Source of the DNA: Moraxellaceae bacterium | Lineage (GTDB): Bacteria > Pseudomonadota > Gammaproteobacteria > Pseudomonadales > Moraxellaceae | NCBI GenBank assembly: GCA_029267635.1 | Contig: JAJUIK010000012.1 | Coordinates: forward strand, 1 to 64,000 | Reading direction: 5' to 3' | Length of the DNA: 64,000 nt | Part shown: positions 352 through 61,693 of the stretch, one piece after another | How the letters are laid out: each line of letters opens with the position of its first letter | How positions within the stretch are numbered: the stretch's first letter is position 1 | Translations under genes and position numbers: made by a program | The notes under the pieces: model-generated | What the model saw: only the letters and a program-made list of their open reading frames with translations | Told to the model about the DNA's origin: nothing | Database searches by the model: none

Positions 352-960
352 ATGGTAGAGCAAAATAATTCAGACGATGCGGTGAAAAAAGAATCACCGG
401 GCGATCATAAGAACTTCATGGGTATCGCACAATATTTAAAAGATATACAGCAAAGTCAGAAAAGATCGGTTCCGCCTCTTGACCAGTGGCATCCGCAGCA
501 TTGCGGCAAAATGGATTTGCGTATCCAGGCCAATGGCGAATGGTGGCATGAAGGTCAGTTAATCAAGCGTGCGGCCTTGATTGAACTGTTTTCCAGCGTG
601 TTGTGGAAAGAGGATGGTAAATTCTATCTGAAAACCCCGGTCGAGCAGATTGAAATTGAGGTCGAAGATGAACCGTTTCTGGTCAACCAGATTGATCAGG
701 TGGAAATCGACGGTAAAACCTATTTGCAATGTACGACTGCAACGCAGGATGTGGTGATCGTGGATGCCGAGCATCCGATTTTTATGCGTGACTATCAGGG
801 TGAACGACGTCCCTATGTGCATATACGTTTTGGCATGAATGCGCTAATCCAGCGTCAGGCTTTCTATCATCTGGTGAATTATGGCGAGTTGCGCGAAGAA
901 AACGGCCATACGATTTTGGTCTTACAAAGTGGTGATTTGCACTTGCAATTAGGCACTTGA
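352..960 (+). CDS. DUF1285 family protein
   Basis: A 202-residue soluble protein of unknown function. After a polar N-terminus of about 40 residues comes the pattern PPLDQWHPQHCGKMDLRI, a GEWWHEGQLIKR segment, LFSSVLW, and KTPVEQIEIEVEDEPF, which I recognise as the DUF1285 family. The family has no signal peptide or membrane segment and its biochemical role is not established. It is divergent from the ETF-QO gene across a 186-bp gap and is followed by murI after 46 bp, so it may be cotranscribed with murI. Family assignment is firm; function unknown. Confidence 0.8.
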   Translation: MVEQNNSDDAVKKESPGDHKNFMGIAQYLKDIQQSQKRSVPPLDQWHPQHCGKMDLRIQANGEWWHEGQLIKRAALIELFSSVLWKEDGKFYLKTPVEQIEIEVEDEPFLVNQIDQVEIDGKTYLQCTTATQDVVIVDAEHPIFMRDYQGERRPYVHIRFGMNALIQRQAFYHLVNYGELREENGHTILVLQSGDLHLQLGT

Positions 961-7349: not shown

Positions 7350-7454
7350 TTTTTCCTCAATTGCTTGAAAAACAGATGGCCTAGCATAGCGGTTTTACCT
7401 CAATTTTGCTTGTCTTGTCGCGGCGTTTTTTTATAAAAAATCGCAGCAGGATGG

Positions 7455-7501
7455 GGATAAAATGCTTTTTATCCACAGTCTTGCCGTTACAATGTGGATA
7501 T
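7455..7501. promoter_or_regulatory. Hairpin and paired DnaA-box-like sites upstream of crcB
   Basis: GGATAAAA and TTTTATCC (7455-7474) form an 8-bp stem. Overlapping it, TTATCCACA (7469-7477), a perfect E. coli-type DnaA box, faces TGTGGATAT (7493-7501), one base off a box on the other strand, so the two form an inverted repeat with a 15-bp spacer. This sits 22 bp before the crcB start. No fluoride riboswitch consensus is apparent. DnaA control of crcB would be speculation. Confidence 0.35.
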
Positions 7502-60183: not shown

Positions 60184-60441
60184 ATGTCAGAAGAACTGAG
60201 CTTGGAAGAGCGTAAAGTGGTTTATCGTGCACGTCGTGGTTTAAAAGAAATTGACGTGTATTTTGATCCCTACGTGAAACAGCATTATTTACAGGCAGAT
60301 GCTGCAGAGAAGGCTTTGTTTGCTGAACTGGTTGCACAGGAGGATCCGGATTTACTGGACTGGTTTATGGAAGTGACTGAACCGCCACGCCCTGAGCTTA
60401 AAACCTTTATTGCCAAGTTAAAGCATTACGTGCATGGTTAA
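60184..60441 (+). CDS. sdhE: FAD assembly factor SdhE (YgfY)
   Basis: 85 residues from the ATG at 60184 with GGGGATAAAG upstream. The RGxxExD motif RGLKEID (18-24) needed for covalent flavinylation of SdhA is intact, followed by FDPYVKQHYL. Cytoplasmic. Overlaps ygfX by 8 bp, as in enterobacteria. Confidence 0.92.
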   Translation: MSEELSLEERKVVYRARRGLKEIDVYFDPYVKQHYLQADAAEKALFAELVAQEDPDLLDWFMEVTEPPRPELKTFIAKLKHYVHG

Positions 60442-60826
60442 GCCAACCCCGGTATTTCAGTTGAAACGCAGTCGCCTGTCGATTGTATTTCAGCTGTTTA
60501 TGCTGGGAGTGTTGTTGACCCTGCTATATGCTTTGCTGAGCCCGTGGCTTTGGCTAGGGTGTGTAATAGTCGCGCTGATCAGCTATGGAATGTTTCTCAA
60601 AAGCCCTGCTGCGCTACGTTTAGAATATCTGGATGCCGATGAGTGGTCGTTACAATATGCCCGTCCCGAGCAGTTAGTGCGCTTAAAACTTCGTCAAGTG
60701 ATAGATCATCAGTTTTATATCGTGCTGTATTTTCGTGGAAGCCAAACAAAACCGCTGTTGATCTGGCGTGATCAGTTGTCCTTATCGCAATGGAAAGCAC
60801 TTAAGCGATTGGCACTTTTGATTTAA
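60434..60826 (+). CDS. YgfX/CptA-like inner-membrane protein
   Basis: 130 residues with two adjacent membrane helices (about 18-50) and a soluble C-terminal half containing WLGCVIV, WSLQYARPEQ and LLIWRDQLS. Position straight after sdhE and overlapping it by 8 bp matches ygfX (cptA), reported as an SdhE-linked protein affecting cytoskeleton in E. coli. Sequence conservation in the family is low, so context carries the call. Confidence 0.75.
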   Translation: MVKPTPVFQLKRSRLSIVFQLFMLGVLLTLLYALLSPWLWLGCVIVALISYGMFLKSPAALRLEYLDADEWSLQYARPEQLVRLKLRQVIDHQFYIVLYFRGSQTKPLLIWRDQLSLSQWKALKRLALLI

Positions 60827-61000
60827 ACCTTAGAATTATCTTTAAGAAATTAAAATATAATTAAAAAAATTAGTTGACAATAAAAAATAAAGATCAGTAC
60901 TCCAATACAAGCTTGCTTTAAAATCACATTTATCAGATGACATTATTCTGCATTTTATATATGCCTAAGCGAAAATTTATTCAGATCAGGACCAAACGAC

Positions 61001-61054
61001 ACTCGATTGGGGATAACTCGCTGATTATCCACAATCGAGTTTAAGTTATCCACA
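61001..61054. promoter_or_regulatory. Cluster of three DnaA-box-like sites with a long inverted repeat
   Basis: TTATCCACA occurs exactly at 61025-61033 and 61046-61054 in the same direction, 21 bp apart. TGGGGATAA at 61008-61016 is a one-mismatch box in the opposite direction. The first and second are the cores of a 16-bp inverted repeat (61001-61016 against 61025-61040) with one mismatch and an 8-bp spacer. All lie in the 423-bp gap between two convergent 3' ends, where no promoter is needed for the flanking genes. Confidence 0.7.
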
Positions 61055-61168
61055 AAATGACTTTTGGGAATGCTAGAAGTCATTTCAGGTTGAGTTGCAG
61101 TGGTGGAGCTACAATTAATTACTCAGTTGTGGGTGATTAATAATGTTTAAAATCATTAAATTGTAGCT
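61055..61168. repeat. Two more inverted repeats beside the DnaA-box cluster
   Basis: AAATGACTT (61055-61063) pairs with AAGTCATTT (61077-61085), and AGCTACAATT (61107-61116) pairs with AATTGTAGCT (61159-61168), each perfect. Neither has a T-run. With the repeat at 61001-61040, three stems lie in 168 bp. The rest of the gap (60827-61000 and 61169-61249) is A/T-rich with nothing I recognise. Confidence 0.7.
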
Positions 61169-61249
61169 ATATAGATATAGAAAGGGCGAGATTGAAGATC
61201 GTTACAATCCCATCACAGCCCCATTATTCAATCCAGACAAAATATCAAA

Positions 61250-61693
61250 TTATGAATCTGCTTGCTGCTGTGCCAGTTGTGCTTCAAGCAGTTTGATCTG
61301 TTCTTCTTTTAATTTGATCAGTGCATCGGCATCTTGGTGTTGTTGAGTCAAGGTACTTTCTTGATCGGTCAGTTGCTTTTGCACATCGTCCAATTTGGCC
61401 ATTTCATCTTTGGCCATGGTGGCATTTTCCGAAACTGGCGCTTTTAGAATGTTTTCATCTACCAGGGTAAGCGGTTCGGATGCTGCAGTTGCAGTAGTGG
61501 CTACATTACTGACCTGAGCTTGAGCAGCAGGAGTTACAGGTGCTGCTTTCACCACTTGAGCCGGCGGTGCGGTCTGTGGTGCTGCGCTATTGGCAAAAAA
61601 CTGGGCATAGGCCACATAGAGCCCAACCAGTACAACAATTCCCCCAATAATCCACCACAACAAGATGGACGTATTTTCTTGCTCTAATCTCAT
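61250..61693 (-). CDS. Single-span membrane protein with coiled coil, unknown function
   Basis: 147 residues: cytoplasmic MRLEQENTS, one membrane helix (about 10-33), an Ala/Pro/Gln-rich linker (about 37-75), and a coiled coil rich in Gln, Lys and Glu (about 95-145) in the periplasm. No family recognised. It is 11 bp downstream of the zinc-ribbon gene and is the third gene of a prlC transcript. Confidence 0.7.
   Translation of the reverse strand: MRLEQENTSILLWWIIGGIVVLVGLYVAYAQFFANSAAPQTAPPAQVVKAAPVTPAAQAQVSNVATTATAASEPLTLVDENILKAPVSENATMAKDEMAKLDDVQKQLTDQESTLTQQHQDADALIKLKEEQIKLLEAQLAQQQADS

Follow-up and report, generated by a model that had tools for sequence, protein, structure and literature searches.

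Why should the gap between two converging genes hold a cluster of DnaA boxes? In the window, i.e., the whole stretch of 64,000 nucleotides that was analysed, 423 bp (60827-61249) separate the stop codon of a 130-aa gene on the plus strand from that of a 147-aa gene on the minus strand, and three boxes, here called the triad, are located in this gap. Sites for the titration or recycling of DnaA have been characterised in depth mainly in E. coli. The open-licence texts of PubMed Central, when searched, gave no description of one in Acinetobacter, which includes important hospital pathogens as well as the laboratory model A. baylyi. The features of the locus are as follows, where G175 denotes a second genome with the same gene order:

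60434-60826, plus strand: left neighbour, a YgfX/CptA-like membrane protein of 130 aa, located after sdhE (Pfam PF07254)
60827-60930, no strand: AT-rich stretch left of the boxes with a GC content of 13-27% in 60-bp windows (composition)
61001-61040, no strand: 16-bp inverted repeat with one mismatch (arms 61001-61016 and 61025-61040) that encloses boxes 1 and 2 (repeat search)
61008-61016, minus strand: DnaA box 1, TTATCCCCA, with one mismatch; the G175 counterpart is TTATCCACA
61025-61033, plus strand: DnaA box 2, a perfect TTATCCACA, forming a divergent pair with box 1 across an 8-bp spacer; G175 counterpart at L004 862-870
61046-61054, plus strand: DnaA box 3, a perfect TTATCCACA in direct orientation, 12 bp after box 2; the G175 counterpart is TTATCCGCA
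61055-61085, no strand: hairpin AAATGACTT...AAGTCATTT adjoining box 3, not kept in G175
61107-61168, no strand: inverted repeat AGCTACAATT/AATTGTAGCT (arms 61107-61116 and 61159-61168) with an inner hairpin, not kept in G175
61250-61693, minus strand: right neighbour, a 147-aa protein without a Pfam family (Pfam search)

The match of the left neighbour to PF07254 (E=2e-5) lies slightly under the curated cut-off. Boxes 1 and 2 of the triad constitute the intergenic divergent pair TGNGGATAA-8 bp-TTATCCNCA (61008-61033). The two perfect boxes 21 bp apart and the reversed box with one mismatch described in the initial annotation were confirmed, and the two further inverted repeats it had listed could be located at 61055-61085 and 61107-61168; its 16-bp inverted repeat linking the first two boxes is present as well, with one mismatch. 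Its estimate of about 0.5 perfect 9-mers per window agrees with the 0.55-0.60 obtained by simulation, against which four perfect boxes were counted in the 64-kb window. Neither three boxes (at most one mismatch) within 50 bp nor a divergent pair with an 8-bp spacer occurred in any of 600 windows simulated with a Markov model. Two strong hairpins without boxes and without a homologue are found at 61055-61168 (fold z-score -5.1).

A search with the 423-bp gap by blastn yielded no homologous gap among 57 relatives. A dispersed repeat or mobile element was ruled out, the gap being single-copy in its own genome and present in no relative. The left gene was found in the 80 sdhE loci examined, all from Acinetobacter, and the right gene in only one of them (L107), where it lies beyond a transporter gene. 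The kinship of these loci points to Acinetobacter as the genus of the window genome too. The two neighbours are not adjacent in most Acinetobacter, and no box cluster like the triad is present at these 80 loci. G175 is the only other genome in which both genes are adjacent, with neighbour proteins that are 55% and 61% identical to those of the window. There, a triad of the same order and orientation is located at L004 (845-853, minus strand; 862-870, plus strand; 884-892, plus strand) with a start-to-start spacing of 17/22 compared to 17/21 in the window, box 3 following box 2 after 13 bp instead of 12 bp. In the best local alignment, the two gaps match over the triad block only, and the gap DNA is otherwise unrelated. 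The triad locus is common to only two sequenced species and is intergenic in both. The initial annotation had staked its reading on conservation in relatives with the same gene neighbours, which was found in the one other genome, G175, where the comparison was made.

The same alignment bears on a small structured RNA, encoded on the plus strand from about 60990 to 61180, which had been named as the other option. Such an RNA is suggested by the fold z-score of -6.3 for 60990-61180, which is still -5.1 without the box pair; inverted DnaA boxes, however, inflate fold scores. The covariance models of Rfam gave no match for the gap, promoter-like sites are no commoner there than in shuffled sequences and no terminator was called. 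In addition, the gap has no homologue in the 57 relatives and the stems outside the boxes are absent from G175, so that this option did not hold up and is considered very unlikely. Rfam matches near 58.4 kb are located outside the gap and under the threshold. As far as can be read from the two sequences, it is the putative boxes and not RNA-like stems that the window and G175 keep in common.

The divergent pair is not restricted to this locus. Of the 176 Acinetobacter genomes, 142 contain the pattern TGNGGATAA-N8-TTATCCNCA, at one to six pairs per genome, and the remaining 34 have no 8-bp pair that fits it. When read backwards as a control, it was found in none of the Acinetobacter genomes but one. 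Outside Acinetobacter, a search with perfect boxes found the 8-bp pair in 4 of 294 Pseudomonadales, and the 11 genomes that represent other genera within the family all lack it. Spacers were surveyed in 41 genomes by counting perfect divergent boxes by hand, with all 31 values from 0 to 30 allowed. Among the 75 pairs listed, the spacers were 8 bp (46 pairs), 14 bp (26) and 2 bp (3), and no other. A DNA uptake sequence was rejected as an explanation, as TTATCCNCA occurs only 134 times per genome and the pairs only one to six times; 134 copies per genome are too few for a system of this kind. It was further considered whether the 8-bp spacer results from hidden tandem boxes 3 bp away, following a rule from E. 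coli ChIP-seq (PMC11317965). By eye these fit the baeR-selO sites described below, but the spacer in the window does not fit, and the idea was dropped.

Among the 56 distinct 8-bp sites sampled, many of which are orthologous and hence not independent, 52 are intergenic (93%), namely 23 in convergent, 28 in codirectional and one in divergent gaps; convergent and divergent gaps have a similar total length in the window. This distribution allows a further explanation, in which DnaA on the inverted pair, or an encoded hairpin, stops converging transcripts as a roadblock or bidirectional terminator. The sites indeed lie close to the 3' ends of genes and are almost absent from divergent gaps. At least six T within the 8 nt after the stem were found at 12 of the 56 sites, where about 2.3 would be expected, and base pairing on both sides of the box borders is above the level expected from composition. 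DnaA bound at a box reportedly blocks transcription at asnC of E. coli. What is kept across the sites, however, is the TTATCCACA sequence with its 8-bp spacer rather than any stem. In the window gap itself no terminator was called, the distance from the boxes to the stop of the left gene is about 180 bp and to that of the right gene about 195 bp, and in the alignment G175 does not share those parts of the stem arms of the 16-bp inverted repeat that extend beyond the boxes. A role in stopping transcripts is for these reasons regarded as unlikely.

A second divergent 8-bp pair of the window is located at 7452-7477, accompanied by a box with one mismatch at 7493 (region 7452-7501). It lies upstream of a crcB-like gene and is the sole sampled site between divergent genes. 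This pair, together with the known function of DnaA as a transcription regulator, would be in line with a DnaA-regulated promoter element of a neighbouring gene. At the triad, however, both neighbours end at the gap, and just one of the 52 intergenic sites is found in a divergent gap, which makes such an element highly improbable. Since the sites are mostly intergenic and so rarely located between divergent promoters, transcriptional control is unlikely for the pair in general, and a role at the level of the chromosome is argued for by their avoidance of promoters.

The sampled pairs recur at orthologous loci, namely between baeR and selO, at a gene after topA, at the htpG 3' end, between phoH and ybeY and near sodC, which we take to be the correct gene names from a reading of the protein sequences. 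At the htpG 3' end, the pair (L193 4482, L196 4892) is possibly also a terminator. The pair at the topA locus is conserved across the genus and present in the window genome as well as in G175, where the boxes form a triad spaced 17/21 like that of the window and the third box has one mismatch. In the window genome (G000) it is the third 8-bp pair and follows topA and a 252-aa gene (L188 5196-5221, G000:C32:275195).

The baeR-selO locus, which was located with SelO as query, shares the divergent 8-bp pair with the triad, mostly in a gap close to the 3' ends of genes. In contrast to the triad, most of its sampled copies add the sequence TTATCCACA-TTTTC-TGTGGATAA-CAT-TGTGGTTAT-CCACA or a close variant, which corresponds to the layout I-N5-II-N3-III of DARS and overlaps the 8-bp pair. 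Candidate DARS core copies in the baeR-selO region, which many species carry, were noted at the following positions:

L194, 5546-5585
L192, 5407-5446
L199, at about 4830
L201, at about 5176
L202, at about 4987

In the window genome and in G175, the baeR-selO gap is reduced to 10 bp and 4 bp, respectively, and contains no boxes (L208, L209). The triad of G175 is located about 430 kb from oriC, with a contig end overlap of about 103 kb allowed for; selO is found on the same arm, about 127 kb farther out. The overlap at the ends of this contig (G175:C1, L213-L224) is untrimmed, and the contig start repeats its end from 2483 kb on. Elsewhere in the window genome, a DARS-like convergent pair, TTATCCACA-N5-TGCGGATAA-N1-TCTGGATAA, was found between an O-methyltransferase and a Usp gene (L207 5387-5419, G000:C13:43386).

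Taken together, the triad is probably a DnaA-binding site outside oriC which holds or recycles DnaA and helps to set the timing of initiation; a promoter is probably not its target. A role in replication control is supported because the box geometry is kept in G175 and the paired-box module is found genus-wide. DnaA, whose binding at the triad is presumed from the boxes, would occupy the divergent pair of boxes 1 and 2 with its 8-bp spacer and extend onto the direct box 3. Once assembled, the complex would retain or recycle DnaA and in this way tune initiation timing, in the manner of datA and DARS of E. coli, and the copy number of the triad would double at fork passage. Active DnaA may go down or up as a result, by titration, ATP hydrolysis or ADP release. 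Counted against this reading are the imperfect box 1, the restriction of the locus to two sequenced species, the Acinetobacter genomes without the pair, the departure from the tandem layout favoured in E. coli ChIP-seq, the many orthologues among the counted sites and the T-rich, terminator-like tails at a minority of sites.

A broader proposal is put forward tentatively, as possible rather than probable: Acinetobacter may control DnaA via its own set of movable sites built on the divergent 8-bp pair, and this lineage may have lost the DARS-like baeR-selO site, with the triad as its replacement at a place nearer to oriC on that arm. From two genomes we reasonably infer, without claiming a demonstration, that the triad may stand in for the missing site. 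With a box geometry specific to the genus, a putative DARS core between baeR and selO and a lineage that lacks this site but has another one, Acinetobacter could be used to test how replication-timing sites evolve and whether their position on the chromosome matters.

The comparison with known DnaA sites places the triad among them by kind, with a layout of its own. DARS (DnaA-reactivating sequences) promote the release of ADP from DnaA, and DARS2 also has IHF and Fis sites. In E. coli MG1655, DARS1 is TTATCCACT-N5-TGTGGATAA and DARS2 is TTATCCCAG-N5-TGTGGATAA, i.e., convergent boxes that are followed by a third box. Box I is opposite to boxes II and III, and the spacing is equal in both (PMC5742627). 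Like the triad, these sites are intergenic and comprise three boxes within about 50 bp, one of which is reversed. In E. coli, however, boxes I and II face each other at 5 bp, whereas box 1 of the triad faces away and the spacers are 8 and then 12 bp. Neither box of the pair has a further box 5 bp beyond it, and the spacer of the pair contains no DARS-type third box. An E. coli-type DARS core was hence rejected for the triad due to differences in spacing and polarity. Regarding the DARS criterion of being intergenic and conserved, the triad is intergenic and, at its locus, conserved only in G175. The tandem boxes in direct orientation, 2-3 bp apart, that are favoured in E. coli DnaA ChIP-seq (PMC11317965) are an arrangement absent from the triad.

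With datA, the triad has in common that it is an intergenic DnaA-box cluster outside oriC. The essential boxes of datA all face one way and an IHF site is needed (PMC5742627). datA was likewise rejected for the triad, in which box 1 is reversed and a full IHF consensus is missing: WATCAANNNNTTR was found neither in the window gap nor in G175, and sites with one mismatch occur twice in the window gap and not in G175.

The initial annotation had stated that the triad is not oriC, and the oriC of the window genome was indeed found at dnaA (G000:C7, L187), with six perfect boxes and 14-bp spacers. The spacer-14 pair is oriC in the three genomes checked (L187, L191, L198), and that of G175, located in a similar box cluster, is taken as oriC. 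In G007, the gap adjoining purK contains four perfect DnaA boxes at a distance of about 20 kb from oriC (L197 3777-4112). The triad resembles its own oriC in the perfect TTATCCACA boxes, which its boxes match, and in the order reversed-direct-direct. This order and the AT-rich stretch beside the boxes, taken as an unwinding element (60827-60930), could point to the remnant of an ectopic or plasmid origin. The spacing is, however, 17/21 and not the 23/23 of the oriC triad, no initiator gene is nearby, the AT-rich tract has no conserved match in G175 and the genome has its own oriC, so that a remnant of this kind is extremely improbable.

Away from oriC, several chromosomal clusters are thought to bind DnaA in Bacillus subtilis; to our knowledge they have no fixed divergent spacing. 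The DnaA-reactivating or titration site of the DARS or datA type that had initially been suggested stands as far as a DnaA-control role outside oriC is concerned, which is well supported by the box geometry in G175 and the genus-wide pair, and falls with respect to the DARS core, the same-direction boxes of datA and its full IHF consensus, all of which are absent. Judged by its boxes, the triad is best read as a putative lineage-specific DnaA-control or titration site, i.e., a variant of the datA/DARS-type sites with its own layout.
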